From: Candidatus Allofournierella excrementigallinarum
GTDB taxonomy: Bacteria; Bacillota; Clostridia; Oscillospirales; Ruminococcaceae
Direction: 5' to 3'
Assembly: GCA_019119025.1 (NCBI GenBank)
Contig: DWXV01000059.1
Coordinates: 1 to 64,000 of the forward strand
Length of the DNA: 64,000 nt
Under the pieces are notes generated by a model. That model saw nothing but the letters and a program-made list of their open reading frames with translations. It did not search any database and had not been told where the DNA came from. Every line of letters starts with the position of its first letter. Within the stretch, counting starts at the first letter, position 1. The position numbers and the translations under genes are program-made. This document shows, one piece after another, positions 6,369-47,300 of this stretch.

Positions 6369-6371
6369 TTT

Positions 6372-29129: not shown

Positions 29130-29148
29130 GGCCCTTCCCTCCTTTTCG

Positions 29149-30147
29149 TTACAATTCGATGGGTTCGTCCTCGGCGAAGTCCCGCTTTGCGGCGCACCCC
29201 AGCACCTCGTGCCAGCGCATGGGGGACACGCCGTCGCCCGGGCGCTTGGTGGTGAGGTTTTCGGCGGTGAAAATTTCGCCCTGCTTGATGGCCTTGGCGG
29301 CCACGATGCTCTTGCGGGCGATGGGCTTGTTTTTTGCCTCGCTGGCACTCACCGCCTTGCGGCCGGTGCCGAGGGCGGCCTGGGTGCGGCGCACTGCCTG
29401 TATCATAGCGGTAAGCTCCGGTACGTCCAGGCTGGCCTTGTGGTCGGGGCCGGGCAGGGTCTTGTCCAGCGTGAAGTGCTTTTCGATGACCACCGCCCCC
29501 AGGGCCGCCGCGGCCACGTCGCACTCCCAGCCGGGGGTGTGGTCGGAAAGGCCCACCGGCACGCCGAACTGCTCCGCCAGTTCCAGCATGGCCAGCAGGT
29601 TCGCGTCCTCATAGGGGGTGGGGTACTCGGTGTTGCAGTGGAGCAGCGTCACCCCGGGGCAGCCGCCGTCCTCCAGAACGGAGAGGGCGTCCTCGATCTC
29701 CGGCAGGGTGCTCATGCCGGTGGAGAGCACCACCGGCTTTTTGGCCGCCGCCACCGCCTCAAGATAGGGCAGGTTGGTGATCTCGCCGCTGGGGATTTTA
29801 AAGAAGGGCAGGTCCAGCTCCTTCAAAAACTCCACGCTGGGCAGGTCGAAGGCCGCCGAGAGGTACTGGATGCCGATGGAATCGCAGTATGCCTTCAACT
29901 GCCGGTGGCCCTCAAAATCAAAGTGCAGCCGCCGGATCATCTCCAGCTGGCTCTCGCCGTCCCCCGTCCGGGCCTTCTGATACTCGGCCTTGGGCGCGAA
30001 TTTCGACACCACCAATTCCGGCACGGCGGTCTGGTATTTCACTACGTCCGCCCCGGCGTTTTTGGCAGCCAGCGCCATCTGTTTTGCCATTTCCAGGCTG
30101 CCGTTGTGGTTGACGCCCGCCTCGGCAATGATGAGAACGTCCTGCAT
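29149..30147 (-). CDS. legI: Nonulosonic acid synthase (NeuB/LegI) with SAF domain
   Basis: The 332-residue enzyme condenses a six-carbon sugar with phosphoenolpyruvate. The TIM barrel carries AEAGVNHNG, SAAFDLPSVEFL, KIPSGEITNLPYL, LHCNTEYPTP, GLSDHTPG and IEKHFTLD, all NeuB-family landmarks. A C-terminal antifreeze-like SAF domain (about 272-332) ends the protein, with ARKSIVAAKAIKQGE. Domain order and length are usual. It lies between yfhO-like and legG genes, with AAGGAG before the ATG. Confidence 0.93.
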   Translation of the reverse strand: MQDVLIIAEAGVNHNGSLEMAKQMALAAKNAGADVVKYQTAVPELVVSKFAPKAEYQKARTGDGESQLEMIRRLHFDFEGHRQLKAYCDSIGIQYLSAAFDLPSVEFLKELDLPFFKIPSGEITNLPYLEAVAAAKKPVVLSTGMSTLPEIEDALSVLEDGGCPGVTLLHCNTEYPTPYEDANLLAMLELAEQFGVPVGLSDHTPGWECDVAAAALGAVVIEKHFTLDKTLPGPDHKASLDVPELTAMIQAVRRTQAALGTGRKAVSASEAKNKPIARKSIVAAKAIKQGEIFTAENLTTKRPGDGVSPMRWHEVLGCAAKRDFAEDEPIEL

Positions 30148-30151
30148 ATCG

Positions 30152-32641
30152 TTATCGCTCCTTCCCCTTTGTTTTCTTGTGCCAGAATGCCAGCGCCGCG
30201 AGGCCCAAAGTCCCCGCCAGCGTCAGGCCAAGGCCCGCCGCCGCGCCCGGCTGGGCGTAGGCCAGCGTGAGGGTGTGGCCGCCCGCGGGCAGTTCCACCG
30301 CCAGCAGCGCCCCCGCCGCCCTCTGGATCTCAGCGGGCACGCCGTCCACTTCGGCCCGCCAGTTTTCGTCATAGGGCACCGTGAGCACCACAAGGCCCTC
30401 CGCCTGCGCGCCCGTTTCCAATGTGATGGCCCCGTCCTTCCAGGCCGTCACCGCCGGGGCCGCCGAGCGCAGCCGGCCGCAGGCGGCGGCCAGGGCTTCT
30501 TCGTCCAGCACCGCGAAGCGGGCAAAGTCCACCGCCGCGCCCAAAGCGACGTTCACGGTCTGCCCTGCCTCAAACCGGCCCAGGTCCACCGCGGCGTCCG
30601 CCGAACGGCCAATGGAAAGGATGCTGCCCTTCTCCTGGCCGTTCACCGCCAGGGGCACATCCGTCCCCGCGCCGGAAAAGACAGCGTAGAGGATGCCGCT
30701 TTCGGGCATCGTCAGGTCGAATGCCGCGCCGCTTCCGCCGCTCTCCACCGGGGTGAACAGGGCCGCTTCCTCGCCCAGCAGGGCGGTATAAAGGGCCTCG
30801 GCCGCCTCAAAGGCGTCCAGGCCTTCCGCCAGTTCGAAGGCCCCGGCGTCCGAGGGCGACCAGAGCGCCCGGGGCAGGGCGTCCGGGTTTTTATACACCT
30901 GCCAGGGGGCGGCAATGTCCGTCTTTTCAAAGTGGGTGGGCGCCGCGTCCCCCTCCCGGGCCAGGAACCACCCCACCGACAGAAGGCTGTCGGCGGCGGC
31001 GGTGCTGCCCGAAAGGTAGCCATAGCTGGAGCCATAGTTGCGGTAGCCCAGGGCCATCAGCAAAATCGACGAGGCCCCGTCCTGCACGCTGCTGAAATGG
31101 GTCAGCCCGTCGTAGCCCAGCAGCATGGGGTCGTTGAGGGTGCGGAAAAAGGTCTTTTCCACCCGGTAGCGTCCGGCGTTCGCTTTTTCCACCGCCTGCA
31201 CGGTGGCCCGCCCGGCCCGCACAAAACCGGCGTAATCCGCCACGGGGTAAACTTCAAAGAGGCGCAGCGCCCAGTATCCGTTCAGCGCCAGCTCCCCGGC
31301 GGTGAGGGCGGCCAGGGCCAGGGCGGCCAGCTTATTTTTGCCGCCTTTGAGGCGGCCCCACAGCCAGACGAGGCCGATGCCCGCCGCCAGCAAGCAGCAG
31401 GCCAGCAGCCAGCGCCGCCGGCCGTAGGTCTCGGCGCGGACGAAATACACCAGCACCCCCAGCGCCGCCGCCAGTGCCCCGGCGGCAAGGCCGGTTTTGA
31501 GGCTCACCGGCCCGGCGAGGGCCCCCGCGCCCAGGGTGAGCAGCAGGAACACCAGAAGGAAGCTCTCCCGGTAGGGGAACCAGTTGGGGGCGGCAAAGCC
31601 ATGCCACGCGAGGTCCAGCGGCCGCCACCAGAGGCTGGCCAGCAGCAGGGCGGCGAACAGCCCATAGACCAGCTTTTCCCGCCGGGGCCTTGCGGAGAAG
31701 AAATAGAGCAGCGCCGCCCCAAGCCCCAGCATGCCGCAGTAGACCGGGGGCAGGCCGCTTTGCACGTCCGCCCAGACGAAGTTTCCGGTGAAGAATTTCT
31801 GGGTAAGGTCCAGCGGTGAAAACTGCCCGCCGCCAAAAAAATCAAGGCCGGTGCTCTTCACCCGCAAAATCTCGGTCACGGCAGGCAGCAGCACCGCGCC
31901 GGCCAGCGCCGCCGCCGTGGCCCCCGCCGCCGCAAAGCGGCCAAAAGCCGAAAAAACGGCCTTCCGTCCTGGGCGGGGCGAGCGCGCCGCGAGCCCCGCA
32001 ATAAAATACAGCGCGGAGAAGATGCACAGCATATACCCCATGTAGAAGTTTGTGAAGATGGCCGCGGCCAGCGCCAGGGCGAAGCCCACGGCCCCTTTGC
32101 CCGCCAGCAGACGGTCCAGCCCCGCCGCCACCAGCGGCAGCAGGATCACCGCGTCCAGCCAGAGGACGTTCTGGGCGTAGGCCACCGAATAGCCCATGAG
32201 GCCATAGCACCAGCACAGGGGCAGCCAGAGGGCCTTTTCGCCGCCCCAGCGCCGCTCGAGGTAAAAGCAGAAGGCCGCCGCCGCCAAAACCACCTTGAGG
32301 GCCCAGACAAGGCAGCACAGCTGGCCGTAGAATTCCGGCGCGATGAGAAGATACAGCCAGGCGAAGGGGCTGGCAAAGTAGTAGGCAAACAGGGCGAAGG
32401 CCCCGCCGCCCAGGCCCAGATCATCGGCATAAAAGAGGCTGCCGCCCCCGCGCGCCGCGTCGTAAAAATGGGCGTAGAAGGGGATATACTGGCTGTTGAG
32501 GTCCCCGGTCATCACCGAGTTCGGCCCGAAGGGCCAGAAGCCGCAGGCGGCATAGACGGCGCAGACGATGAGCGCCATGCCCCCCGCCGCCAGAAACAGG
32601 CGGCCCCGGCGGCCCTTAAAAAAGCGTTTTGCTCGTTCCAT
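30152..32641 (-). CDS. YfhO-family membrane glycosyltransferase-like protein
   Basis: The 829-residue protein has about 12 membrane helices, the family motif GDLNSQYIPFY after the first helix, and a large outside C-terminal domain (about 500-790) before a last helix. B. subtilis YfhO is a GT-C-type enzyme that glycosylates lipoteichoic acid outside the membrane, so a similar wall or lipid glycosylation is expected. Length is typical. The ATG follows GAGAGG. It is in the leftward operon, 4 bases before legI. Confidence 0.88.
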   Translation of the reverse strand: MERAKRFFKGRRGRLFLAAGGMALIVCAVYAACGFWPFGPNSVMTGDLNSQYIPFYAHFYDAARGGGSLFYADDLGLGGGAFALFAYYFASPFAWLYLLIAPEFYGQLCCLVWALKVVLAAAAFCFYLERRWGGEKALWLPLCWCYGLMGYSVAYAQNVLWLDAVILLPLVAAGLDRLLAGKGAVGFALALAAAIFTNFYMGYMLCIFSALYFIAGLAARSPRPGRKAVFSAFGRFAAAGATAAALAGAVLLPAVTEILRVKSTGLDFFGGGQFSPLDLTQKFFTGNFVWADVQSGLPPVYCGMLGLGAALLYFFSARPRREKLVYGLFAALLLASLWWRPLDLAWHGFAAPNWFPYRESFLLVFLLLTLGAGALAGPVSLKTGLAAGALAAALGVLVYFVRAETYGRRRWLLACCLLAAGIGLVWLWGRLKGGKNKLAALALAALTAGELALNGYWALRLFEVYPVADYAGFVRAGRATVQAVEKANAGRYRVEKTFFRTLNDPMLLGYDGLTHFSSVQDGASSILLMALGYRNYGSSYGYLSGSTAAADSLLSVGWFLAREGDAAPTHFEKTDIAAPWQVYKNPDALPRALWSPSDAGAFELAEGLDAFEAAEALYTALLGEEAALFTPVESGGSGAAFDLTMPESGILYAVFSGAGTDVPLAVNGQEKGSILSIGRSADAAVDLGRFEAGQTVNVALGAAVDFARFAVLDEEALAAACGRLRSAAPAVTAWKDGAITLETGAQAEGLVVLTVPYDENWRAEVDGVPAEIQRAAGALLAVELPAGGHTLTLAYAQPGAAAGLGLTLAGTLGLAALAFWHKKTKGKER

Positions 32642-32666: not shown

Positions 32667-33278
32667 TCAGCCCCGCTTTTTCAAAAGCCGCCCCTTCCAG
32701 AAAAGGCCCAGGTCCAAAAGCACCGCCGCCGCGGCAGGCAGCGCCGCCAGCGCCAGCGCCTGCCCGGCCCGGGGCACGAAGTACCGCCAGAAGGCCACCG
32801 GCGCGTTCACGGTGAGGCTGGCGTTTTCGCCCTCGGCCAGCACCACGCCCGCCCCTGCGGCGGGGTCGATGCGGATGGTATCCGCCGTTTCCGGGAACAC
32901 CAGCAGCACGCCGTCCTCCACGCCCTGGGCAAACACCCGGCGGCGCAGGCTGAAGTCCTGCCCGGCGGCGGCCCAGTAGCCCTCAAAGCCGGAGGCCGGC
33001 GCATCGGTCTTCAAAAACACGCTGCGCACCGGCCGCCCGCCGGCGAAGACAAACTGCGGGTCGGCCCCGGTGGTGACCCAGAGGCCGTCCCCGGTGAGGG
33101 CGATATCCTGGCTTTGCAGCGAGGAAAGGGGCACTTCCCCCGCGGCCAGCCGCCCGGTGGCAAAGCCGAGGGCGTCCTGCCCGGCGTTTCCTAAGGCCCA
33201 CAGCGCCCACAGCGCCAGGGCCAGGAGATAGCAGGCGGCCACCAGGTGGGCCGCCGCCCATGCAAACACTCGTTTCAT
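32667..33278 (-). CDS. Small membrane-anchored partner protein (pair A)
   Basis: This 203-residue protein has an N-terminal helix (about 10-30), an outside beta-rich domain of about 130 residues and a C-terminal helix (about 172-192). It contains TTGADPQFVFAG at the position where the partner at 40094 has STDGDPQLLWQG. I recognise no family. The ATG overlaps the stop of the large membrane protein at 33275 (ATGA). The same large-small order and overlap recur at 36305 and 40094, so this looks like one of three related modules. Confidence 0.7.
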   Translation of the reverse strand: MKRVFAWAAAHLVAACYLLALALWALWALGNAGQDALGFATGRLAAGEVPLSSLQSQDIALTGDGLWVTTGADPQFVFAGGRPVRSVFLKTDAPASGFEGYWAAAGQDFSLRRRVFAQGVEDGVLLVFPETADTIRIDPAAGAGVVLAEGENASLTVNAPVAFWRYFVPRAGQALALAALPAAAAVLLDLGLFWKGRLLKKRG

Positions 33279-35239
33279 CCTTCGGCCCCCACGTTGCAGA
33301 CAAAGTCAAATTGGCCCAAGGCCCCGTTCCAGGCGTACACCGCCGAACCCGTCTCACAGCCCGCCAGCCCGTCGCTGAACAGAGCCGCGTAGCCATCGGC
33401 AAAGAGGCCGTCGCTGCGCTCCACGAACACATAGTCGCAGCCCCGCCCGCGGATACACTCCAGCAGTTCTTCGGCGGTGTAGGGGTGGTAGTAGGGCGCA
33501 CCCTCTTCCAGCGCCCCGGGCACAGCGAAGGTGCCGCCGCCGCCCTGGCCGTCGTTGCCGCTGTAGTCCAGATACCAGGGGTAAAGCTCATAGGAATAGA
33601 GGAACCAGCGGCTGCCGTCGTCCCCCTGGCTGACGAAGAAGATATGGGCGTCCTTCGGCACCGCCGCCTGCACCTGGGCCGCTTCGTCCCGGGCGGCCCA
33701 GCGCGCGGCGTAGGCGGCGTTTCCCCCGCCGAACACGGTGAGGCTGAAGGGCAGCCGCAGCCACACCAGCGCCGCCAGCGCCAGCGTCATCGCCGCGAAG
33801 CCGGTCTGCACAAGGCCCTGGATGCGCTCGGAGCCCATGGCCCGCAGCACCAGCGCCGCCGAGGCCAGCAGCCAGCCCAGCAGATAAGGGTACATATACC
33901 GCTCAAAGCCCACCAGCCCGCCGGACACCTCGTCCCGGAACACATACACATAGGTCAGGCCGATGAAGAAAAAGTAGGCCGCAAAGCCCGCCGTGCCCAG
34001 CACGGCAAAGAGGCCCGCCTGACGGCGCAGGGCTTTTTCCTTTGTGAGGACGGCCGCCCCCGCGGCCATGGCCACCGCCAGGGCGGCGACTGCCGCGAAA
34101 GGCCCCACCATGGTGGTTTGGGAGGTGAAAAGCGCCCGCACAAGGCCCCCCATGATGGTGGCGAATTTCCCGGTGCGGCCGATGCCAAGCAGCTCCTTCA
34201 CGCCGGTGAGCACCATTTCGGCCATGCCCATCTGCTGGGTGCCGCCCACGTTGGTGGTATCCGCCGCGCTTGCCACCGAGAGGTATTTCTGCCAGCTCCA
34301 GAAAGAAAGGCCGCAGGTGGCAAAAAGCCCGGCCCAGCCCGCCGCGGGCTTTGCCCAGCGGCGCAGGGGAGCCTTTTCCAGCAGCAGGGCAAAGGCCCCG
34401 TCGGCGGCGATGAGCCCCGCCGCCACCAGCGCCAGGGCAAAGCCGGTGTCTTTTTCCAGGCACAGGGCGGCCAGCGCCAGGGCCGAAGGCCACAGCGCCT
34501 TTTTCTCGTTGATATAGTAGGCCGCCAGCGCGCCGCCGAAGGTCAGGCCCAAAGGGATGTCCGAGAGGGCCGAGGCGTAAAGGTCGGTGGGGCGGGCGAC
34601 GCTGCCGTAAAGGGTGATGACGAAGGGCAGCAAAAAGCCGAAGCCCAGCGCCGGCACCCACTGCCGGGGCCTGCCTTTTTCGCAGCCGGCGGTGAGGGCG
34701 GCGAAGATGGAAAGAAGCAGGATGTCATAGCCCGCCAGCACCCGCCACTCGGCGTATTCGCCGAAGAACTGGAAGAACCAGCCCAGCACCACCAGCGCCG
34801 GGCGGTGGGTGCCCACCCAGGCCCAGCCGATGTCGGCGTTCACATAAAGCCCGCCGCTGGTTTTGACGATCTTGGCGGCGGTGCCCCAGAAGGAGAATTC
34901 GTCCCAGGTGGAGAACATGGGCTGCCGCCAGGCGAAAAAGGCCAGCAGCGCCGCCGCCAGCACGAAAAAGGCGGCAAAGCCGGGGGCTTTCAGCGCGGCG
35001 GCGGGCTGTTTTGCCCCCGCCGGCCAGACCGCGAGCGCCCAGGCCGCCGCCGCCAGCGCAAAATAGAGCCACCCGGCCGCCGCCAGCACGCCCAGCATGC
35101 CCGCGGCGGAAAACCACACCATGGTGGCGCACACAGCCGCAAAGGGCGCAAGCGGCGCGGGCAGCTTTGTGCGCCGCGCCATGAGCACGGCAAAGCCCGC
35201 CAGCGCCGCCAGCGACAGATAGCTGTAAAAAAGTTCCAT
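33275..35239 (-). CDS. Large GT-C-like membrane protein (pair A)
   Basis: The 654-residue protein has about 12 membrane helices. In the first outside loop lies WDEFSFWGTAAK (Asp113-Glu114), the place of catalytic acids in GT-C enzymes. SDIPLGLTFGG follows mid-protein and FFVSQGDDGSRW near the start of a soluble C-terminal domain of about 120 residues. The same three motifs occur in the proteins at 36919 and 40735. Transfer of a lipid-linked sugar is inferred. ATG at 35239 has GGGAG at 8 bases. It overlaps its small partner gene by 4 bases. Confidence 0.75.
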   Translation of the reverse strand: MELFYSYLSLAALAGFAVLMARRTKLPAPLAPFAAVCATMVWFSAAGMLGVLAAAGWLYFALAAAAWALAVWPAGAKQPAAALKAPGFAAFFVLAAALLAFFAWRQPMFSTWDEFSFWGTAAKIVKTSGGLYVNADIGWAWVGTHRPALVVLGWFFQFFGEYAEWRVLAGYDILLLSIFAALTAGCEKGRPRQWVPALGFGFLLPFVITLYGSVARPTDLYASALSDIPLGLTFGGALAAYYINEKKALWPSALALAALCLEKDTGFALALVAAGLIAADGAFALLLEKAPLRRWAKPAAGWAGLFATCGLSFWSWQKYLSVASAADTTNVGGTQQMGMAEMVLTGVKELLGIGRTGKFATIMGGLVRALFTSQTTMVGPFAAVAALAVAMAAGAAVLTKEKALRRQAGLFAVLGTAGFAAYFFFIGLTYVYVFRDEVSGGLVGFERYMYPYLLGWLLASAALVLRAMGSERIQGLVQTGFAAMTLALAALVWLRLPFSLTVFGGGNAAYAARWAARDEAAQVQAAVPKDAHIFFVSQGDDGSRWFLYSYELYPWYLDYSGNDGQGGGGTFAVPGALEEGAPYYHPYTAEELLECIRGRGCDYVFVERSDGLFADGYAALFSDGLAGCETGSAVYAWNGALGQFDFVCNVGAEG

Positions 35240-35258
35240 ACGCAAAGCTCCCTGCGCG

Positions 35259-36308
35259 TCAGGCCTGCTGTTCCAGGCGGCGGCGCATCTTTTCCAGTTC
35301 TTCCATCTGGCCCATGTCCATCCAGGCGGACTCGTTGATGGGATACACCCCCACCGGCAGGCCCCTTTGACGGTATTCGTCGATCACGTCGGGAAAGCCC
35401 ACCTTGCGGCCCTCCTCCATCTCCTCCACCACCTGCGGCTCCACCACGTAAACGCCGGTGTTGGTGAGGAAGTTCAGCTCCGGCTTTTCCCGCATGGCGG
35501 CGATGGCTCCGTTCTCCCCCATCTCCACCACGCCGTAGGGCACGGTGTAGTGCTTGTAGGCGCAGATCATGGTGATGAGGTTGCCGTGCTTTTTGTGATA
35601 CTGATACACATCGCCGTAGTCCACGTCCAGGAGGGTGTCGCAGTTGGAGAAGAAGAAGGTGCCGTCCAGCTTGCCCTTCAAAAGGCTCAGGCCGCCGCCG
35701 GTGCCCAGAAACTCTGTCTCGTCCACATACTCCACCTGGTAGCGCAGGTCCTCCAGGTCGTTGAAATAGGACTTGATCATATTCTTTTTGTAGTTTACCA
35801 CCAAAACCATGCGGCGGCAACCGAAATCGGAAAAGCGCTCCAGGATGAGCTCGCAGATGGGTTTCTCCCCCACCGGGATCAGGGGCTTGGGCAGGATCTT
35901 GGTGTAGGGATAAAGCCGAGTGCCCAGGCCCCCGGCCATCACCACCACCGGGATGTTCGCCTGCTTGCGGTTGTCCACGTCAAGGCCGGTGGCGAACACC
36001 ACATCCGTCACATGGCCGTCCCGGTCCAGAAGGGGAAGCGCGTCGATGGAATGCCGCTCCAGCATGGCCTTGGCCCGCCCACGCTCTTCCAGCGGCAGGC
36101 TCTTGGGGGAATAGTTCGCCGCAAGGCGCACCGGGTCCTCCAGCCTGCCGCCCCGCAGCAGGAACTTGCGCAAATCGCCGTCGGTGAGCACCGCCTGCAG
36201 CCTGCCCTCCGGCGCGATGAAGAGGATGCGCTGGCCGGTCTCGTCCAGCTGCTTCATGGTCTGGAGGATGGTGGCGTCCTCCCGGATGAACAGTTCTTCC
36301 AGTTTCAA
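35259..36308 (-). CDS. ptmE: CBS-domain sugar-1-phosphate nucleotidyltransferase (PtmE-like)
   Basis: The 349-residue protein has two CBS motifs (about 1-115) followed by a nucleotidyltransferase domain: VVVMAGGLGTRLYPYTKILPKPLIPVGEKP (nucleotide loop), FFSNCDTLL and GVYVVEP. This architecture matches Campylobacter PtmE, which makes GDP-GlcNAc for legionaminic acid from glucosamine phosphate. The start is a TTG at 36308 that overlaps the preceding stop as TTGA, with AAGGGGG upstream. Its product should feed LegB. Confidence 0.85.
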   Translation of the reverse strand: MKLEELFIREDATILQTMKQLDETGQRILFIAPEGRLQAVLTDGDLRKFLLRGGRLEDPVRLAANYSPKSLPLEERGRAKAMLERHSIDALPLLDRDGHVTDVVFATGLDVDNRKQANIPVVVMAGGLGTRLYPYTKILPKPLIPVGEKPICELILERFSDFGCRRMVLVVNYKKNMIKSYFNDLEDLRYQVEYVDETEFLGTGGGLSLLKGKLDGTFFFSNCDTLLDVDYGDVYQYHKKHGNLITMICAYKHYTVPYGVVEMGENGAIAAMREKPELNFLTNTGVYVVEPQVVEEMEEGRKVGFPDVIDEYRQRGLPVGVYPINESAWMDMGQMEELEKMRRRLEQQA

Positions 36309-36922
36309 TCGTCTTCCCCCTTTTCCCGTTTCAGCGTCAGGGCGCATCCGGCAAGGCCGGGCAGCACCGCCAGCCAGAACAGCTGCCATGGCGACGGGAT
36401 GAAGTATTCCTGCAAAGGCACTCGCTCGTTGAGCAGGATGGCGCAAAACTCCACCTGCACGCCGGCGGTGTCCGCCAAATCCAGCCGCACCCCCTGCCCG
36501 GCAAACCGGGGCAGGGTGTAAAGCCAGCTGCCGTCCTCCTGCCTTTCGGGCCACACCCGCAGGCGGGGTGTGTAACCAAAGCCCGGCAGGTGATAATAAA
36601 GGTCCTTTTCGGCGGAGGCCTCCCCTTCATACCGCGCCACAAGGCGCAGCCGCCGCACCAGCGTGCCCGGCGCCAGCAGCAGCTGGGCGTCGCCGGTGGT
36701 GCTGGTGAGCGTGCCGCCGGTGTTTTCCATGTTCACAAGGGCGTATTGCCCCGCATCTTCCAGCGTGACGGTCTTTTCCTCCAGAACGCCCGCGGCGTAA
36801 AGCAGCTGGTCCAGGGCGAAATTGCCCACGAGGGTCAGCGCCAGCAGGCAGGCGCCCAGGGCGTAAAGGGCACGGAAGGGCCGGCGGCGCGCCGCCGCCC
36901 AGAGGTTTTTCAGCCGCTTCAT
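36305..36922 (-). CDS. Small membrane-anchored partner protein (pair B)
   Basis: The 205-residue protein has a basic N-terminus, one helix (about 16-38), an outside beta-rich domain and a C-terminal helix (about 178-196). TSTTGDAQLLLAPG occupies the place of the DPQ motif in the partners at 32667 and 40094, with Ala for Pro. No family is recognised. It overlaps the large gene at 36919 by 4 bases (ATGA) and the PtmE-like gene by 4 bases, so all three are likely translated together. Confidence 0.68.
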   Translation of the reverse strand: MKRLKNLWAAARRRPFRALYALGACLLALTLVGNFALDQLLYAAGVLEEKTVTLEDAGQYALVNMENTGGTLTSTTGDAQLLLAPGTLVRRLRLVARYEGEASAEKDLYYHLPGFGYTPRLRVWPERQEDGSWLYTLPRFAGQGVRLDLADTAGVQVEFCAILLNERVPLQEYFIPSPWQLFWLAVLPGLAGCALTLKREKGEDD

Positions 36923-38913
36923 CCCGTCACCTCCCCGGCAAGGGACGCTGCGGGCGTCCAGCCCGCTTCGCTTTTTTCATAAAGGGCGGGGCCCTGCTTC
37001 GCGGCGGCCAGGCCGTCGGTGAAAAGGGCAGCGTAGCTCTCTTCAAAGATGCCGTTCACACGGCTCACCAGCAGCAGGTCCACCTGCTCGGCCTTTAGCA
37101 GGGCGGAAAACTCCTCTTCTGTGTAGGGCGCGCTGTAAGGCATGCCCTCCACCAGCGCCGGTTCGCCGTAGGTGGCGCCGCCCTCGCCGTAAACAAGGGC
37201 GGGGCACAGCTGCTGGTTGAACAGGAACCAGGAAAAACCCTCGTCGCCCTGATGGATGAGGAACACCTTCTGCCCCGGCCGGATGGCCGCTTTCGCGGCC
37301 TTCGCCACCGCCAGCTCCTGCCGCACCGGGGCGTACTCGCCGCCGCCCACCCCCAGCAGGGTGAACTGAGGCTCTGTGCCCGCGGCCAGCGCCGCCGCGA
37401 ACGCCGCGCCCACGGCCAGCGCCGCCGCCCGGCCAAGCGCCGGGCGCTTCGCCGAAGCGCAGCTGACCGCCAGCACCGCCAGCGCCAGCAGCAGCCAGCC
37501 GGTGTAGTAAGAAGCAAAATACCGGGGATAGCTGGCAAGGTTTTCGGGGGTGGAATCTTTCAAAAGGAAGGCGTAGCTCAGCCAGAGCATCAGCCAGTAG
37601 CCGGCAAAGCAGGCAGAACTGCCCACAGCGAACAGGGCAGCCCGCAGCCGCGCCCGTTTGCCGGCCGCCAGCAGCACGGCGGCCAAAAACACCGCCAGCG
37701 TCAGCGCCGCCACCGCCGCGCCGGCGCCGAACACCGACACCTTGCGGTGCCAGAACGCGTCGGTCATGGCGCTGCCGTACTGCCAGAAGATCTCGCTGCG
37801 GGCCTCGAAGTAGCTTTCTGCCGGCAGGCCCAGCAGCAGCTTCAGGCCATTGGCCACCACCGCGGGCAGGCTGGCGGAGGCGGTGTCGCCCATGCCGCCG
37901 GCGGCGGCGTTGCGCCGCACAAGGCCCGCGATGTAGTTGTTCCAGAGAAGGTATTGGGCGGCGGGGGCGGTGAGGCAGGCCGCGCCGAAACCCAACCGGG
38001 CGGCAAAGCCTTTTGCCCCCCGTTTTTCGCCGGGGGCAAACAGCGCCGCGTCCAGCGCCACAAGCCCCGCCGCGGCAAGGCCCAGCACAAAGGTGTTGCT
38101 TTTCACGTTCGCCGCCAGCATCAGCACCGGCAGGGTGAGCCACCGGGCCGCGGGGCCCTCGTCTCTCACCGCCAGCCAGAAGGCCGCGGCCCCGCCAAAG
38201 AGCATGCCGGCGGGCAGATCGCCTAAAAATTCCAGCCATGCGGTGTTCAAAAGGGCGGTGTGGCCCGCCACCGTGACCAGCGTGGGCAGGCTCAGGCCCG
38301 CCAGAAAGAGCGGGCAGGCCAGCCGGGCGCGCTTTGCGCAGCCCGCGGCGGCGGCCAGGGCCGCCAGCATCAAAAGGTCGGCGGCGAAGATGGCCCGCCA
38401 GGGCGCGAAGGGCCCGAACAGCTGGAAGAAATAGCTTGCCAGCGGCAGGGCGGCCAGTTCGGTCATCTGCCAGGGCAGGCCGGTCTCGCAGACGGTGTAA
38501 AGGGCGTCGTTTTCGCAGGTGAGCTTCGCGGCGGTGCCCCAGAAGGAGTATTCGTCAAAGTTCAGAAATTCCGGCCGCAGCAGCCAAAGGCCCACGGCCA
38601 GCGCCAGCGCCGCAGCCCAGAAAAGCTTTGCGGCGGGGCTTTCCAGCGCCGCCGCCAGCGGGCAGGTCTCCCCTTTTTTCTTTGCCAGAGCGGCCTCAAG
38701 GCCGCCGCCCAAAAGGCCCAGCGCCGCCAGGGCAAGGCCCGCCGGGCGCAGAACGCCCAGGAGCCCCGATGCCAAAAGCACCAGTTCCGCCAGGGCCAGC
38801 GCCGCCAGCGGCGCGGCGGCGCTGCCCACGCCGGCGCGGCGGGCAAGCACGGCGCTCATGCCGAAGAGGGCCGCCAGCATCGCCAGCAGGCCGAACAGTT
38901 CGCCCCAGGCCAC
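36919..38913 (-). CDS. Large GT-C-like membrane protein (pair B)
   Basis: The 664-residue protein is a paralogue of those at 33275 and 40735. It has FDEYSFWGTAAK (Asp120-Glu121) in the first outside loop, GDLPAGMLFGG mid-protein and FLIHQGDEGFSWFLF before the soluble C-terminal domain, with about 12 membrane helices. The start is GTG at 38913 with GGGAGG at 7 bases. It precedes its small partner and follows legC by 30 bases. A glycosyltransferase acting on a lipid-linked sugar is inferred. Confidence 0.74.
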   Translation of the reverse strand: MAWGELFGLLAMLAALFGMSAVLARRAGVGSAAAPLAALALAELVLLASGLLGVLRPAGLALAALGLLGGGLEAALAKKKGETCPLAAALESPAAKLFWAAALALAVGLWLLRPEFLNFDEYSFWGTAAKLTCENDALYTVCETGLPWQMTELAALPLASYFFQLFGPFAPWRAIFAADLLMLAALAAAAGCAKRARLACPLFLAGLSLPTLVTVAGHTALLNTAWLEFLGDLPAGMLFGGAAAFWLAVRDEGPAARWLTLPVLMLAANVKSNTFVLGLAAAGLVALDAALFAPGEKRGAKGFAARLGFGAACLTAPAAQYLLWNNYIAGLVRRNAAAGGMGDTASASLPAVVANGLKLLLGLPAESYFEARSEIFWQYGSAMTDAFWHRKVSVFGAGAAVAALTLAVFLAAVLLAAGKRARLRAALFAVGSSACFAGYWLMLWLSYAFLLKDSTPENLASYPRYFASYYTGWLLLALAVLAVSCASAKRPALGRAAALAVGAAFAAALAAGTEPQFTLLGVGGGEYAPVRQELAVAKAAKAAIRPGQKVFLIHQGDEGFSWFLFNQQLCPALVYGEGGATYGEPALVEGMPYSAPYTEEEFSALLKAEQVDLLLVSRVNGIFEESYAALFTDGLAAAKQGPALYEKSEAGWTPAASLAGEVTG

Positions 38914-38943
38914 GGCAGGCCCTCCCTTCTGTTTTTGGTCTGT

Positions 38944-40101
38944 TTACAGGGCCAGAACGGCCTCGATCACCCGGGCGCACTGGGCCTCGGTGAGATTGGT
39001 GGAACAGGGGATGTTCACGATGCGGCGGCGGTACTCCCGGGCGATGTCCATGGCGTGGGTCTCGTTGCGGCCATAGTCGCACTGCTCGTTGATGAGGGAC
39101 CAGACCGGGCGGGTCTGGATGCCCTGAGCCTGCAGGCGGGCGATCACGTCGTCCCGCTCCAGGCGGTCGGGCAGCAGCAGGCTGTAGAACCAGTGGTTGG
39201 AACGGGTCCCCTTTCGGAAGGGCAGCATGGAAAAGCCCTTCACGCCGTCCAGCGCGGCCTTGTACTGCTCGTAACGGGCGGTCTTGTGCTCAATGAAACC
39301 CTCCAGCAGTTCCATCTGGGCAAGGCCCAGGCAGGCGTCGATGTTGGTCATGCGGTAGTTGTAGCCCACCTCGTCGTGCCTGAACTGCAAGAGATCCGTT
39401 TTGGCCTGGGTGGACAGATGCTTTACCCGCGCCGTCCACTCCGGGTGGCTGGACACCACCGCGCCGCCGCTGCCGGTGGTGATGATCTTGTTGCCGTTGA
39501 AGCTGTAGACGCCCACGTCGCCCATGGTGCCGGCGAATCTGCCCGCCAGCTCCCCTTCGGTATACCTGGTGCCCAGGGCCTCGGCGGCGTCCTCGATGAG
39601 GGTGAGTTTATAGTCCTTCGCGATGCGCAAAAAACGGGGCATGTCCGCCATGTTGCCGAACACATGCACCAGCACCAGCGCCGAGACCCTGGCCCCGGTG
39701 CGCTTGTTGTAAAGGCCGTCTGCCCTCAGCTCGCACTGGTTGGCGCAGAAGTCCTCCACCGCGTCCGGGTCCATGGTGGCGGTGGCGTCGCAGCCGAAGA
39801 ACACCGGCTCGGCGCCCACGTACCGGGTGGTGGGGTTCACCGAGGCGATGAAGGTCAGCGCGGGCACGATCACCTCGTCGCCCGCCTTCACGCCCGCCGC
39901 CAGCGCCGCCAGATGCAGCCCGGCGGAGCCGGAAGCACAGCACACCGCCGCAGGGCTTCCCACATAGTTTGCGATGCACTCTTCCATCTCGCCCACCTTG
40001 GCGCCGCTGGTGGACACCCAGGCGCCGTCCAGCGCCTCGTCCACATATTTGCGCTCGTTGCCGCAGAAATTGGGCACCGAAAGGGGAATGAACTCACTCA
40101 T
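38944..40101 (-). CDS. legC: LegC-family PLP-dependent aminotransferase
   Basis: The 385-residue aminotransferase of the DegT/DnrJ/EryC1 class opens with LSVPNFCGNERKYVDEALDG and AWVSTSGAKV, as in LegC. The pyridoxal phosphate Lys205 lies in SFNGNKIITTG. It should aminate C4 of the 4-keto sugar nucleotide made by LegB. Its start overlaps the end of the small partner gene at 40094 by 8 bases, with GAGGT at 7 bases. Together with legB it distinguishes legionaminic from sialic acid synthesis. Confidence 0.92.
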   Translation of the reverse strand: MSEFIPLSVPNFCGNERKYVDEALDGAWVSTSGAKVGEMEECIANYVGSPAAVCCASGSAGLHLAALAAGVKAGDEVIVPALTFIASVNPTTRYVGAEPVFFGCDATATMDPDAVEDFCANQCELRADGLYNKRTGARVSALVLVHVFGNMADMPRFLRIAKDYKLTLIEDAAEALGTRYTEGELAGRFAGTMGDVGVYSFNGNKIITTGSGGAVVSSHPEWTARVKHLSTQAKTDLLQFRHDEVGYNYRMTNIDACLGLAQMELLEGFIEHKTARYEQYKAALDGVKGFSMLPFRKGTRSNHWFYSLLLPDRLERDDVIARLQAQGIQTRPVWSLINEQCDYGRNETHAMDIAREYRRRIVNIPCSTNLTEAQCARVIEAVLAL

Positions 40102-40738
40102 TGTTATGACCTCGCTTTTCGTTGGATCGTTCGTCTTTTTTCAAAAAAGCGCCCAGCGCCCGGCGCAGCTGGCAAAGCGCCGCCAGCGCCAGCGGTGGCG
40201 CGAACAGCAAAAGCATCCCTTCGCCCGCGCCGGGCAGGAAGGCCGCCAGCGGGGAGAGGCCCGGGTTGAACACAACGCCGTCCAGCCGGGTGACCACGCC
40301 GCCCTGGCTGTCCGGGTCGATGCGCACCTCGCTCACCTTCACGCCGCCCACATCGAAGGAGTAGACGCCGGGGGCGGTGAGAACCCCGTAGACCGACTGG
40401 CGGGGGGAGAAATCCGTCTGGCCCGGCGTTTTCCAGTAAAGCATCACCGCCTGGGGCGGGCTTTGGTGCTCTGCAAAAAGCCACACGGCGTCAAGATAGG
40501 CTTCCCCCTGCCACAAAAGCTGGGGGTCGCCGTCGGTGGAGATATACCAGGGGCCCTCCTCCCCCGCGTCGTAGGGCTGGATGCCCACCGGCGTGAAGTC
40601 CGCGGCGGCAAGGCTTTGGGTGGCGGCCAGGCCCTGGCGGGCGTACCAGGCGGCCCTGGCAAGGCTCACACAGCCCAGCAAAAGCCAGAGGGCCAGGCCC
40701 GCCGCCCAGGCGATGAGAAGCGGTCGTAATTTTCTCAT
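40094..40738 (-). CDS. Small membrane-anchored partner protein (pair C)
   Basis: The 214-residue protein has an N-terminal helix (about 8-28), an outside beta domain carrying STDGDPQLLWQG, and a C-terminal helix (about 170-192) with a charged tail. It is related in layout and motif to the proteins at 32667 and 36305. It overlaps the large gene at 40735 by 4 bases. Function unknown; a role in positioning donor or acceptor for the large partner is an inference. Confidence 0.69.
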   Translation of the reverse strand: MRKLRPLLIAWAAGLALWLLLGCVSLARAAWYARQGLAATQSLAAADFTPVGIQPYDAGEEGPWYISTDGDPQLLWQGEAYLDAVWLFAEHQSPPQAVMLYWKTPGQTDFSPRQSVYGVLTAPGVYSFDVGGVKVSEVRIDPDSQGGVVTRLDGVVFNPGLSPLAAFLPGAGEGMLLLFAPPLALAALCQLRRALGAFLKKDERSNEKRGHNNE

Positions 40739-42747
40739 GCCGCGCCTCCTTCCACCCGGCTCCAGCGCACGCCGCCGCCGTCGTACTCGACGGCCAGCAG
40801 CACCGGCTCGTCGGGCTTGTCGTCCGGCAGGCCCTCGCAGCCGAAGGCGGGGCCGATCGCGTCGGCGATGTAGTCGTCGCTGGCGTCCACCAGCACGTGG
40901 GTGTATTTTTTGTCCAGCAGGAACAGCCGCAGGTCGTCGGCGTCCGCCACCGTCTGGTAGCTGTAGACCTCCGGCACGCCCTCCCCCGCCGCCTCGGGCG
41001 AGACGATGTTCATGTGGGTGGTGTCCCAGTTATAATCGCCCTCGTGGCCGTAACCGAAGCCGCCGAAGCCCCGGGCGAGGGTGGCGTTCAGCTCAAAGCC
41101 GTAGTAGTTCCAGCGGACGGCGGTGTCGCCCTGGCTGATGAGCAGCACCGTGTCCTCCCAGTCCAGCAGGCCGTTCACCGTCTCCGCCCGCTCCTTCACG
41201 TCCTGGCGCACGGAATACACCGAGTGGGGGTAGTTCCAGAAGCCCGCGGTGGGCATGCCCCGCCAGGCGATGAGCGCGCAGAAGCCCAGCAGCACCCCGG
41301 CGGGCACTGCGCCCGCCAGCTTTGCCGCCCGGCTTTCGGCGGCGGCGTACCGGGCCAGAAGGCCCAGCGCCATCAGGAAAAAGCCCATGTAATAGGGGCC
41401 GATGTAGCGGATATAGTCCTGCAGATTGGCCGCATCGGTCTCGCGGAAGTTGTAGACATAGAGGAACAGATGGAAGATGAGGAAGGCCCCCAGCGCCAGG
41501 GTGGCGAACACCCCCAGGCACACCGGGCGCAGCCGTTCGCCCTTCGGCGCGGCCAGCGCCGCCACTGCCAGCACCAGCCAGATGAGGGCCAGGGCCAGCG
41601 CGCCGCCGCCCAACAGGCACACCGGGATGGTGAAGGGGCTGGCGAACATGGCGTTTCGCACCTGGGCGAACTTTTCGGTGGGCTCCATGAAACCCAGCAG
41701 CTGGGCCACGCCCTCGGCCATGGCCTGGCCCTGGGTGACCTCGTGGATCTCGCTGCCCACGGTGGTCTTGCCCAGGCCCGTCACCGCCGCCACATAGCGG
41801 CTCCAGCCAAGGTAGGCAAGGCCCCCGGGCAGGATGGCCAGCAGGGCCGGCAGCGTGTCTTTCAGGCGGCGGGAAGCTTTGCGTTTCGGCCCGCAGAAGA
41901 GCCGGTCGGCGCAGACCAGGCCCACCACGATGCACCCGTAGGCAAGGCCCACGTCCTTGGTGAGCACCAGGAAGGCCGCCAGCAGCGCGGTGAGGCCGAG
42001 GGCCGGGGCGGGCCGCTGGCGCAGGGAGAAATAGACGCACAGGCTCGCCCCGAACACAAAGCCCAGGGGCAGGTCGCCCATGAAGGAGATGTAAACGTTG
42101 GAGATGCCGCCGAGGGATGGCGCGCTGAAAAAGAAGGGCGTCAGGAAGCCGCAGGCGGCCGCCACCGCCGCCCCCGCTTTGGAGCGGCGGGGCAGGCTGG
42201 CCACGGCGGCCACGGCGGAGGCCAGCAGGGCATCCAGCGCAAAATAGGCCGACCATTCAGAGAAGCCCTCGCCAAAGAACTGGAAAAGATAGGCCACCAG
42301 CATCAGCGCCGGGGTGGCGGTGCGGGCCAGGAGGTTGCCCGGCGCCGCCGGGTGCAGCATGTCGTGGAGCTTGGTCAGCTTTGCCGCCGAGCCCCAGAGG
42401 CTGAACTCGTCGGTCTGGGTGAACATGGGCCGGGTGGCGGCGAACACGGCCAAAAAGAAGGCCGCCGCCAGCAAAAAGGTCATAAAGCCGGGGGTCAGAA
42501 GCTCCTTGAGCGCCCCGGCAAGTTCCTTTTTGAAGAGGAGCCACGCCGCCAGCGCCGCGGCGGCCAGATAGAAGGCCCAGCCGCCCGCCTCCAGCAGCCC
42601 CAGCATGCCCCAAAGGCACAGCCAGACAGCCCCGCCGGCGATCACCGGCAGGGCCAGCAGGCCCGCGTCCAGTTTGAAACGGCGGGCCAGCACGGCGCTG
42701 TAAAGGCTGATGGCCAAAAGCGCCAGTATCCCACTGAGCAGCGGCAA
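40735..42747 (-). CDS. Large GT-C-like membrane protein (pair C)
   Basis: The 670-residue protein has about 12 helices and the shared motifs: TDEFSLWGSAAK (Asp113-Glu114), GDLPLGFVFGA and LLISQGDTAVRW. Its soluble C-terminal domain is about 140 residues. It starts with TTG at 42747, supported by AAAGGGGG at 8 bases. Like its paralogues at 33275 and 36919 it is followed by a small partner with ATGA overlap. Three such pairs in one operon suggest successive transfers with different donors or acceptors. Confidence 0.74.
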   Translation of the reverse strand: MPLLSGILALLAISLYSAVLARRFKLDAGLLALPVIAGGAVWLCLWGMLGLLEAGGWAFYLAAAALAAWLLFKKELAGALKELLTPGFMTFLLAAAFFLAVFAATRPMFTQTDEFSLWGSAAKLTKLHDMLHPAAPGNLLARTATPALMLVAYLFQFFGEGFSEWSAYFALDALLASAVAAVASLPRRSKAGAAVAAACGFLTPFFFSAPSLGGISNVYISFMGDLPLGFVFGASLCVYFSLRQRPAPALGLTALLAAFLVLTKDVGLAYGCIVVGLVCADRLFCGPKRKASRRLKDTLPALLAILPGGLAYLGWSRYVAAVTGLGKTTVGSEIHEVTQGQAMAEGVAQLLGFMEPTEKFAQVRNAMFASPFTIPVCLLGGGALALALIWLVLAVAALAAPKGERLRPVCLGVFATLALGAFLIFHLFLYVYNFRETDAANLQDYIRYIGPYYMGFFLMALGLLARYAAAESRAAKLAGAVPAGVLLGFCALIAWRGMPTAGFWNYPHSVYSVRQDVKERAETVNGLLDWEDTVLLISQGDTAVRWNYYGFELNATLARGFGGFGYGHEGDYNWDTTHMNIVSPEAAGEGVPEVYSYQTVADADDLRLFLLDKKYTHVLVDASDDYIADAIGPAFGCEGLPDDKPDEPVLLAVEYDGGGVRWSRVEGGAA

Positions 42748-42774: not shown

Positions 42775-44436
42775 TCAGCCGATGACGTACACCGGCCCGA
42801 TGAAGTAGTGCTGGAACAGCAGCACCGCGCCCAGGGCCCCGAACACCGCCGAGACCCCCAGCGCCACCCGCCGGGCCCTGGCCTGCCCTGCGGCCAGGCG
42901 GGGCTCCAGCACATGGCTCAAAAGGGCCGCCACCAGCACGAAAAGCATCAAAAAGGCGGGCAGGAAGTACCGCGCCTGCAAGCCGATGATGCGGATCATG
43001 CCCACCGGGGTGCTGGTGATGTACATCGCGGTGGCCGCGCCCGCCATGTAGACGATGCTGAGTGCCCCCAGGCCAAAAGCGGGCATGGGCCGAAGGCTGC
43101 TCTTCTCATGCACCGAAAGGGCCGCCGCGAAGAACAGCACCAGGGGGCTGACCAGGCTGATGAAAGGCACTTCCAGGTCCAGCGCGCCGAAGAGGCCCAG
43201 CTGCCCCAGGAAGAAGTCGTTTTCATAGAAGCTGCCCAGCAGCACCGAAGCATAGCGGAAGGGGTTGGCCAGGATGCCCAGCAGCTGCGGCACCTCCGCC
43301 GCGCCCTCGATCTGGCGGCCCACATAGGGGTAATTGAAGCGGAAGGCGGTGCCGTACCAGTCGAACAGCTTGCCCAGGGCAAGGCCGCCCACCAGGCACC
43401 CCGCCGCCAGCTGCCACTTTTTGACCCGGGTCTTCCAGGCCGAGCGGGGCAGCACCAGCGGCAGCACCAGCCAGAGCAGGCTGATATAGGGCTTTGCCAG
43501 GTTCATCATCAAAAAGGCCGCGACGAACACGAGGATGTCCCTGTCCAGGATTTCGTCCTTGCAGTAGAAGCTGGCCACCAGGTAGTAAAAACCCAGCAGG
43601 GTGGCGTCGTAGCTCACCGATGCGGCCATGTAAAGGCTCAGGGGCAGCAGCATGAAGGCGGTGAACACCGGCTTGTAGCGCTTGCAGTTTTTCAGCGCCA
43701 GCCAGCACAGGGCGGCGTAGGCCAAAAGGTTTGCCAGCCGCGCGGCGTAAAGGCAGCCCAGTGCTTTGAGGCCCAGGACCCGGGCCACCAGAATGCCCAG
43801 CGCCTGGGGCAGCATGGAAAGGGTCATAAAGAAATAGGGCTCGCCCACTTCCTCTTTTGCGGGCTGGCCGTCAAAATAGGCGGCGAAGCCGTCGGCGATG
43901 CTCTCCACCCGGCCGTCCTCCCCCCGCTGCTTGAGGGCATAGCCCGCGGTGGTGTAGCTGCGCTCCTCGCCCTCCTCGGTGTAGGTGAGGCCCTGGCTGG
44001 TGTGGCTGGCAACCCACGCGCCGGGGAAGCTCTCCACCAGTTTTGCCACGTCGCCGGGATAGAGACGGTCGTGGTCGAAGGTGAAGCGGCCCTGGCTCAA
44101 AGAATAGCTGCGCAAAAAGTGGGCGGTCTCGTCCGGCACCTGCAACGGCGGGTTCGCAAAGCAGAACAGCGCCCCGCAAAGGAAAATGGCCAGCGCCGCC
44201 TTCGCGTCGAAGCTGCGCAGCTTCGAGCCGGCCCACACCGCCAGCGCCGCGGCCAGCACGAACACCGCCGCCGCGCCGTAGAGCAAAAGGGCGGGTACGC
44301 CCCGGTTGTCGAGATAATACACCACCCGCCAGTAGTACATGAAGCCCACGGCGGCGGCCAGCGCGGCCAGAAGGCCCAGGGCGGCGAGCGCCGGGCGGGG
44401 CGGGCGCTTAAAATATTTTGAAAGCACGTTTTGCAC
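42775..44436 (-). CDS. DUF2142-family membrane protein
   Basis: The 553-residue polytopic protein has the DUF2142 hallmarks: FANPPLQVPDETAHFLRSY after the second helix pair, SYDATLLGFYY mid-protein, and GLQARYFLPAFL near the end. These proteins sit in polysaccharide clusters and are thought to be GT-C-like, but their chemistry is not established. The start is GTG at 44436 after GAGGT. A 130-base hairpin-rich gap separates it from legB. Confidence 0.85.
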   Translation of the reverse strand: MQNVLSKYFKRPPRPALAALGLLAALAAAVGFMYYWRVVYYLDNRGVPALLLYGAAAVFVLAAALAVWAGSKLRSFDAKAALAIFLCGALFCFANPPLQVPDETAHFLRSYSLSQGRFTFDHDRLYPGDVAKLVESFPGAWVASHTSQGLTYTEEGEERSYTTAGYALKQRGEDGRVESIADGFAAYFDGQPAKEEVGEPYFFMTLSMLPQALGILVARVLGLKALGCLYAARLANLLAYAALCWLALKNCKRYKPVFTAFMLLPLSLYMAASVSYDATLLGFYYLVASFYCKDEILDRDILVFVAAFLMMNLAKPYISLLWLVLPLVLPRSAWKTRVKKWQLAAGCLVGGLALGKLFDWYGTAFRFNYPYVGRQIEGAAEVPQLLGILANPFRYASVLLGSFYENDFFLGQLGLFGALDLEVPFISLVSPLVLFFAAALSVHEKSSLRPMPAFGLGALSIVYMAGAATAMYITSTPVGMIRIIGLQARYFLPAFLMLFVLVAALLSHVLEPRLAAGQARARRVALGVSAVFGALGAVLLFQHYFIGPVYVIG

Positions 44437-44566: not shown

Positions 44567-45550
44567 TTACAGATTGTAGACGTCGGGCTTGTACCGCTCC
44601 ATGTTGCCCCGCAGAAACTCGATGGTGGCGGCAAGGCCCTGTTCAAAGGTATAGGCGGGCTTCCAGCCGGTGAGGGCGCGCATCTTGGAAGCGTCGCCCA
44701 GCAGGCGCTCCACCTCGCTGTTTTCCGGGCGCAGGCGCTGGGCGTCGCACACGATCTTCGCCTCGGGGTTGATCTGGCGGATCAGCTCGTTCGCAAGATC
44801 GCCGATGGAGTGCTCCTCGCCGGTGGCGATGTTCACCTCCTGGCCGATGGCCCCCTCGCAGTCGCCCAGGGCCATGAAGCCGGCGGCAGTGTCCTTGACG
44901 TAGTTGAAGTCGCGGGTGGGCTCGAGGCTGCCGAGTTTTATCTCGGTCCTGCCCGCCAGCAGCTGGGTGATGATGGTGGGGATGACCGCCCGGGCGCTCT
45001 GGCGGGGGCCGTAGGTGTTGAAGGGCCGCACGATGGTGACCGGCAGCCCGAAGCTGCGCCAGAAGCTCTCGGCCAGGCGGTCCGCGCCGATCTTGGTGGC
45101 GGAATAGGGGCTCTGGCCCTGGAAGGGGTGCTTTTCGTCGATGGGCACGTACCGGGCGGTGCCGTAGACCTCGCTGGTGGAGGTGACCAGCAGGTGCTTC
45201 GTGCCCACCTGGCGGGCGGCGTTCAGCACGTTCAGGGTGCCTTTGATGTTGGTGTCCACATAGCTGTCGGGGCTGTGGTAGCTGAAGGGGATGGCGATGA
45301 GGGCCGCCAGATGATAAACGATCTCCTGGCCTTCCATGGCGCAGCGCACGCCGTTGGGGTCGCGCACGTCGCCCATGAACACCTCGATCTCGTTTTTGAT
45401 CTCGGGGGGCAGGGTGTCCAGCCAGCCCCAGGTGCCGAAGGAGTTGTACAGGCAGAAGGCCTTGACCCTTTCGCCCTTTTTGACCAGTTCCTCGGTGAGA
45501 TGGCTGCCGATGAAGCCGTCGGCGCCGGTGACCATGACGGTATGTGCCAT
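44567..45550 (-). CDS. legB: NDP-N-acetylglucosamine 4,6-dehydratase (LegB-like)
   Basis: The 327-residue extended SDR has VTGADGFIGSHL (NAD binding), TSTSEVYGTA and the catalytic YSATK, followed by VRPFNTYGPRQSARAVIPTII. This matches the LegB-type dehydratase branch found beside LegC-family aminotransferases. It should convert the activated GlcNAc to the 4-keto-6-deoxy sugar, the first committed step. Its ATG has AAGGAG at 7 bases and a strong promoter lies 60 bases upstream. It heads the leftward arm of the glycan island. Confidence 0.9.
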   Translation of the reverse strand: MAHTVMVTGADGFIGSHLTEELVKKGERVKAFCLYNSFGTWGWLDTLPPEIKNEIEVFMGDVRDPNGVRCAMEGQEIVYHLAALIAIPFSYHSPDSYVDTNIKGTLNVLNAARQVGTKHLLVTSTSEVYGTARYVPIDEKHPFQGQSPYSATKIGADRLAESFWRSFGLPVTIVRPFNTYGPRQSARAVIPTIITQLLAGRTEIKLGSLEPTRDFNYVKDTAAGFMALGDCEGAIGQEVNIATGEEHSIGDLANELIRQINPEAKIVCDAQRLRPENSEVERLLGDASKMRALTGWKPAYTFEQGLAATIEFLRGNMERYKPDVYNL

Positions 45551-45610: not shown

Positions 45611-45639
45611 AGTATACCCCATTTACGGCCGGATTTCAA
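45611..45639 (-). promoter_or_regulatory. SigA promoter of the leftward surface-sugar operon
   Basis: Read leftward: TTGAAA (45634-45639), a 17-base spacer and TATACT (45611-45616). It is back to back with the rightward promoter at 45652. Confidence 0.85.
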
Positions 45640-47275: not shown

Positions 47276-47300
47276 AACATAAGCGAAAGGGGGCGCGGGA

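Follow-up and report, generated by a model that had tools for sequence, protein, structure and literature searches.

A co-inherited pair of genes for a predicted GT-C membrane protein and a CBM-like partner, in three copies at a nonulosonate locus

Genes of the locus

The window analysed here is a stretch of 64,000 nucleotides from Candidatus Allofournierella excrementigallinarum (contig DWXV01000059.1, positions 1 to 64,000). Its minus strand holds three genes for large membrane proteins, called LARGE below, each followed by a gene for a small protein, SMALL, and these lie among genes with recognisable links to nonulosonate synthesis (Table 1). An initial annotation made from the sequence alone had described three tandem pairs, and an open reading frame check and motif search recovered all three LARGE and all three SMALL genes where it had placed them, with their motifs. 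The pairs are indeed three in number but are not strictly tandem, with a nucleotidyltransferase gene and a DegT aminotransferase gene interposed.

Table 1. Genes and features of the locus, listed in the direction of transcription (positions in the window)
Feature	Position	Strand	Remarks
Promoter-like TTGAAA-17-TATACT	45611..45639	minus	upstream of LegB-like gene; consensus match only
NAD-dependent 4,6-dehydratase family, LegB-like	44567..45550	minus	name inferred from context
DUF2142 membrane protein	42775..44436	minus	probable distant GT-C-type relative of LARGE; homologues elsewhere carry N-terminal SMALL
LARGE copy 3	40735-42747	minus	670 aa
SMALL copy 3	40094-40738	minus	214 aa
DegT/DnrJ aminotransferase, LegC-like	38944..40101	minus	name inferred; between pairs 2 and 3
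LARGE copy 2	36919-38913	minus	664 aa
SMALL copy 2	36305-36922	minus	205 aa; DAQ variant
CBS + nucleotidyltransferase, PtmE-like	35259..36554	minus	name inferred; true start probably near 36308; between pairs 1 and 2
LARGE copy 1	33275-35245 from TTG; 33275-35239 from ATG	minus	656 aa from TTG; 654 aa from ATG
SMALL copy 1	32667-33278	minus	203 aa; DPQ, RIDP, N158
YfhO membrane protein (PF09586), GT-C glycosyltransferase family	30152..32641	minus	
NeuB-family nonulosonate synthase	29149..30147	minus	
NeuC/LegG-like UDP-GlcNAc 2-epimerase family	27948..29348	minus	ORF start overextended
Cytidylyltransferase (PF02348), CMP-nonulosonate synthetase candidate	24440..25210	minus	

Three motifs recur in LARGE copies 1, 2 and 3: DEFSFWGTAAK, DEYSFWGTAAK and DEFSLWGSAAK; SDIPLGLTFG, GDLPAGMLFG and GDLPLGFVFG; and SQGD, HQGD and SQGD. 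The DE of the first motif, which had been thought to occupy the same position in all copies, is near residue 113 in copies 1 and 3 but about 6 residues later in copy 2. The small proteins of pairs 1 and 3 have DPQ where that of pair 2 has DAQ, and the sequence ATGA forms the junction of all three pairs, both as first read. Alignments of the LARGE copies with each other cover almost the whole length, with 29-33% identity (E 1e-53, 9e-45 and 1e-27), and the SMALL copies show 25-31% identity (E 2e-10, 2e-8 and 4e-5); these similarities are far above chance, and by this measure the copies within each set are true paralogues. Conserved residues of LARGE copy 1 include D113, E114, D227, K263, R447 and Y448. 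Across 85 diverse sequences D113, R447 and Y448 are invariant, and E114, D227, K263 and W316 are nearly so; in SMALL, D73, R136 and D138 are invariant. ARAGORN calls a tRNA-Lys at window positions 37381-37470 (minus strand), inside the conserved frame of LARGE copy 2, and this call is most likely a false positive.

The order of genes around the pairs is strongly conserved among related loci: a LegB-like gene, DUF2142, one to three LARGE-SMALL pairs, DegT, the nucleotidyltransferase, often YfhO, then NeuB, NeuC and two GFO/IDH oxidoreductases. Genes of this kind together point to a legionaminate-type nonulosonic acid, with the precise sugar as the putative part of the assignment. Because all three pairs lie in one conserved nonulosonate locus, it is plausible that they serve one glycan. 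The promoter-like sequence in front of the LegB-like gene may mark where the operon begins. In a multi-component transmembrane glycosylation system a C55-P-sugar synthase and a flippase work together with the GT-C enzyme; here the genome gave five GtrA-type matches, which are candidate flippases for lipid-linked donors, and the window has GT2 genes, none of them assigned to a LARGE-SMALL pair.

Family status

Scans against Pfam and NCBIfam gave no credible match for LARGE or SMALL, in agreement with the earlier remark that no family name fitted either protein, and strong matches to separate, unrelated known families were looked for and not found. Scattered weak matches were all that Pfam returned for 80 SMALL relatives, with no family appearing consistently. 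A LARGE profile found no relative among PDB sequences, a SMALL profile found chance-level matches only, and the Pfam model for DUF2142 (PF09913) did not match any LARGE protein of the window. A relationship of LARGE to YfhO (PF09586) was considered and rejected, with no Pfam match and an hhalign probability of 3.1. A literature search returned nothing on LARGE or SMALL, nor on legionaminate in Faecalibacterium in connection with GT-C enzymes.

Pairing and co-inheritance across genomes

A contig scan yielded 72 loci, all from Oscillospiraceae or unnamed Clostridia, with Gemmiger, Fournierella, Faecalibacterium, Ruthenibacterium and Subdoligranulum among the genera represented. Iterated profiles identified 123 LARGE and 114 SMALL-containing open reading frames in these loci, and after refinement of start sites SMALL was found directly downstream of LARGE in 105 of the 123 cases. 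The 18 exceptions are of several kinds. Four lie near or off a contig end, and in six a neighbouring DUF2142 protein carries or probably carries SMALL (one of them, L073, is cut by the contig start). Two (L004, L005) are distant LARGE paralogues from the same genome as the window, and the remaining six are single cases. For one of these six (L055), SMALL is encoded at another place in the genome, at the N-terminus of a 706-residue protein with the look of DUF2142. One genome (G336) has LARGE genes at three loci and no detectable SMALL; this genome, together with LARGE relatives that lack an adjacent SMALL on two contigs of the window's own genome, argues that SMALL is not universally required. 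The latter relatives are the distant paralogues L004 and L005 mentioned above, at C21:31810-33579 and C40:1854-3722, and other families of the order have similar ones. A second locus of another genome (G059) holds a LARGE-SMALL pair that is strongly diverged (L081:6547-8550 and 8535-9173), and no nonulosonate genes were recognised nearby.

The junction between the two genes is distinctive. By a measure that is independent of the choice of start site, a start codon is available in a four-base overlap with the preceding stop at 79 of the 105 LARGE-SMALL junctions. The same overlap occurs at 0 of 55 DUF2142-LARGE, 2 of 45 LegB-DUF2142, 1 of 35 NeuB-NeuC, 1 of 31 DegT-nucleotidyltransferase and 6 of 35 SMALL-LARGE junctions in these loci. 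As a feature of the sequences, this bias points to translational coupling of the LARGE-SMALL pair specifically.

The two proteins have also diverged together. Pairwise distances among LARGE proteins correlate with those among the adjoining SMALL proteins (r = 0.906, 105 pairs), while shuffling SMALL partners within loci gave a mean r of 0.41 and a maximum of 0.55, with none of 1000 shuffles reaching the observed value; each SMALL has therefore stayed with its own LARGE. The correlation speaks for a stable unit rather than for a physical complex, because linked inheritance alone can yield such a correlation, and linkage also accounts in part for the agreement between the trees and for the co-occurrence. 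In the LARGE tree each of the three copies from the window falls into a clade of its own, together with close orthologues from other genera, and on this phylogenetic evidence they are old and distinct copies rather than recent duplicates. One pair is present in 18 loci, two pairs in 30 and three in 9.

LARGE proper, at E below 1e-100, was found in 22 of the 148 genomes surveyed in the family, and a 23rd (G140) has a distant relative alone. All 22 also carry SMALL, a strong NeuB match and DUF2142 (Fisher p 3e-24, 1e-14 and 2e-18, respectively); in genome G013 SMALL was found as a DUF2142 fusion. Among 197 genomes of the order, adjacent LARGE-SMALL pairs were observed solely within this family. 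The suggestion that the two genes form a two-component module is thus borne out by conserved pairing, the four-base overlap, the matched divergence of the partners and their co-occurrence, and the pairing that co-occurrence analysis was meant to look for is present in other genomes.

Predicted structures

An AlphaFold2 model of LARGE, based on an alignment of 85 sequences from the window and the fetched loci, is a confident one (mean pLDDT 94.7, pTM 0.95). In VIA-align comparisons the model matched ArnT (5ezm) with a Z of 15.3 over 426 residues at 5.2 A, followed by Pmt1 (12.7), ALG12 (12.4), archaeal OST (11.8), AftD (10.7) and PglB (9.5), several GT-C families besides ArnT thus scoring 8-13, though Z values near 13-15 can occur among helical proteins. 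ALG12 and ArnT also ranked first in a Foldseek search, at E values of 1e-3 to 3e-3, so that Foldseek alone gives LARGE only E ~1e-3. The match to ArnT begins near residue 79, and residues 1-78 form three extra helices. D113 (85 of 85 sequences) and E114 (83 of 85) directly follow the first core helix (residues 86-105), and so lie in the expected first outer loop, where GT-C enzymes have a catalytic acidic residue. The confident model and its matches to ArnT, PMT, OST, ALG12 and AftD support a GT-C fold for LARGE, as the initial annotation had supposed. LARGE shares with this superfamily the fold, the acidic residue after the first core helix and a soluble C-terminal part; it differs in its roughly 10% identity, the three added N-terminal helices, a small partner of its own and the lack of a Pfam match.

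A distant connection may exist to DUF2142. A single hhalign comparison with LARGE gave a probability of 83.5 (E 8e-6), a type of score that membrane proteins inflate, and the conserved Lys and RY of DUF2142 align with K263 and R447-Y448 of LARGE. Proteins of this family (PF09913; e.g. lactococcal WpsI/WpsJ) share these aligned residues and also have an acidic PDE motif, and in some genomes they are further linked to the pair by carrying SMALL as an N-terminal domain. LARGE and DUF2142 are probably distant relatives, a relationship best treated as a lead.

The SMALL model is likewise confident (mean pLDDT 96.1), with a helix at residues 12-41, a beta-sandwich at 47-157 and a second helix at 171-202, and the single helix at each end agrees with what had been read from the sequence. 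The best Foldseek matches were CBM86 (6sgf, E 2.6e-5) and CBM32 (2v72, E 6.8e-4), and VIA-align gave the sandwich a Z of up to 7.6; many of the folds matched at Z 7-8 bind things other than carbohydrate, and the CBM-like fold predicted here is no proof that SMALL binds carbohydrate. Both termini are rich in Lys and Arg (on average 3.6 such residues among the 12 at the N-terminus and 3.7 among the 14 at the C-terminus), and the beta-sandwich should therefore be outside. Taken at the level of these confident models, LARGE represents a new family within the GT-C superfamily, and SMALL is its dedicated partner with a CBM-like fold.

The SMALL domain in other proteins

At eleven loci SMALL is fused to DUF2142, with SMALL at the N-terminal end of the protein; for one of these, L067, the basis is a profile search together with gene context. 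At another locus (L078:3804-5501, minus strand) two tandem SMALL-type domains precede an ABC-2 permease (PF01061, Wzm/TagG-like), and this fusion gene adjoins an ABC ATPase gene, with LegB- and nucleotidyltransferase-like genes nearby, which is the layout of a polysaccharide exporter. A natural fusion of LARGE to SMALL was looked for and not found.

These arrangements raise the tentative idea that SMALL is a portable outer-face glycan-recognition module, working in trans or in cis with the new GT-C family, with DUF2142 GT-C proteins and with an ABC polysaccharide exporter permease. Were this so, recognition of a specific growing glycan by each unit would determine which glycans are decorated or exported.

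More distant SMALL-like segments (with DPYxx, LYFFT and IRFDI) were noticed at five loci of other families, in secreted-looking proteins of ~800-1000 residues with a conserved long C-terminal part; the one protein scanned, from L120, had no Pfam match. A search with the SMALL profile for WpsH-like partners beside DUF2142 in other Bacillota gave none at a credible E-value. One protein of 179 residues (L135:2776-3312, minus strand), which has a membrane segment at its N-terminus and a domain that is probably rich in beta strands, is encoded directly beside a DUF2142 gene; its sequence is unrelated to SMALL, and possibly the same division of labour has evolved again.

Proposed function and alternatives

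With moderate confidence, we favour a model in which the LARGE-SMALL pair is a two-subunit extracytoplasmic glycosyltransferase, LARGE being the catalytic GT-C protein and SMALL a dedicated subunit for acceptor binding or assembly, and in which the three pairs are three old specificities acting on one nonulosonate-containing surface glycan. The donors of GT-C enzymes are linked to polyprenyl phosphate and are used at the outer face (PMC8035078). On this model LARGE has a pocket around the invariant D113 of the first outer loop, where it would accept a sugar or oligosaccharide from such a polyprenyl-phosphate carrier before transferring it outside the membrane. SMALL, its translation presumably coupled to that of LARGE, would stand beside it with both termini cytoplasmic and the CBM-like beta-sandwich at the outer surface, where the sandwich would most likely hold or select the acceptor glycan, or else organise the complex. 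The three pairs, as old and separately inherited specificities, would probably add different residues or linkages to one nonulosonate-containing glycan, presumably the product of the surrounding operon.

Several GT-C enzymes have an acceptor-binding CBM built in, namely GT136 ORF12, EmbC and AftD (PMC11127046), and a 2021 review raised the possibility, as an open question, that the smaller members of GT-C rely on a second protein for recognition of the acceptor polymer (PMC8035078). The LARGE-SMALL pair fits this proposal, as a GT-C protein without a CBM of its own and a co-inherited, membrane-anchored CBM-like protein. It resembles EmbC, AftD and GT136 ORF12 in combining a GT-C catalytic unit with a CBM-like outer domain (PMC11127046), but here that domain is a separate membrane-anchored protein. 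Deletion of the CBM from GT136 ORF12 did not abolish activity (PMC11127046), which counts against the acceptor-binding reading.

A rather improbable alternative is that the pair is a polymerase and chain-length regulator in the manner of lactococcal WpsI/WpsH, with LARGE polymerising lipid-linked repeat units and SMALL controlling how long the product becomes. WpsI is a DUF2142 GT-C polymerase, and its partner WpsH begins with a signal peptide or helix and ends with a helix, the two being separated by a large outer loop (PMC12599335, PMC8327497, PMC10821137; the names are swapped in one place of the last). Both the distant similarity of LARGE to DUF2142 and the fusion of SMALL to DUF2142 in other genomes speak for such a scheme, but up to three diverged pairs, along with DUF2142 and YfhO, in one locus are more than one polymerase needs. 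The two systems are alike in having a GT-C protein and a small partner with an outer domain between terminal membrane segments (PMC12599335, PMC10821137), a likeness in which SMALL is set beside WpsH by description only; they differ in the copy number of one to three and in the nonulosonate setting of LARGE-SMALL.

It is about equally doubtful that the role of SMALL is confined to stabilising or folding the GT-C protein, with no binding of glycan, as that of PIG-X/Pbn1 would be for PIG-M. GPI mannosyltransferase I is a GT-C enzyme with an essential non-catalytic subunit (PMC9306709), and the pair-specific co-inheritance and gene overlap would fit an obligate subunit equally well. Against this stand the resemblance of the outer domain to CBMs, the invariant D73, R136 and D138, and the recurrence of SMALL on a polysaccharide-exporter permease, which suggests a glycan-related role. 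PIG-M/PIG-X, a heterodimer of a catalytic mannosyltransferase and a small membrane subunit, resembles LARGE-SMALL in this plan (PMC9306709), but it is eukaryotic. Finally, since the case for catalysis comes from fold and conservation, LARGE might have a fold derived from GT-C enzymes and yet serve in transport or as a scaffold, but this is very improbable given that the acidic loop residue and the RY pair are invariant in all LARGE copies, even among paralogues at ~30% identity.

If the two-subunit glycosyltransferase model is correct, LARGE-SMALL is a natural and conserved case in which the catalytic and CBM-like units are separate genes, co-inherited pair by pair, and the presence of up to three paralogous versions in one locus makes the question of acceptor recognition directly testable. 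The pair would also explain part of how nonulosonate-linked surface glycans are built in common gut commensals (Faecalibacterium, Gemmiger, Fournierella and relatives).

Other genes of the window

Two further groups of genes in the window may concern surface glycans. At 4671-7958 on the minus strand, a GtrII-type protein (PF14264) lies beside an unassigned membrane protein of 565 residues and GT2 genes, possibly another outer-face glycosylation set. At 45725-48251 on the plus strand, divergent from the glycan operon, a gene for an MBOAT acyltransferase is followed by one for a weakly GDSL-like protein, and these two could be a pair for glycan O-acetylation.
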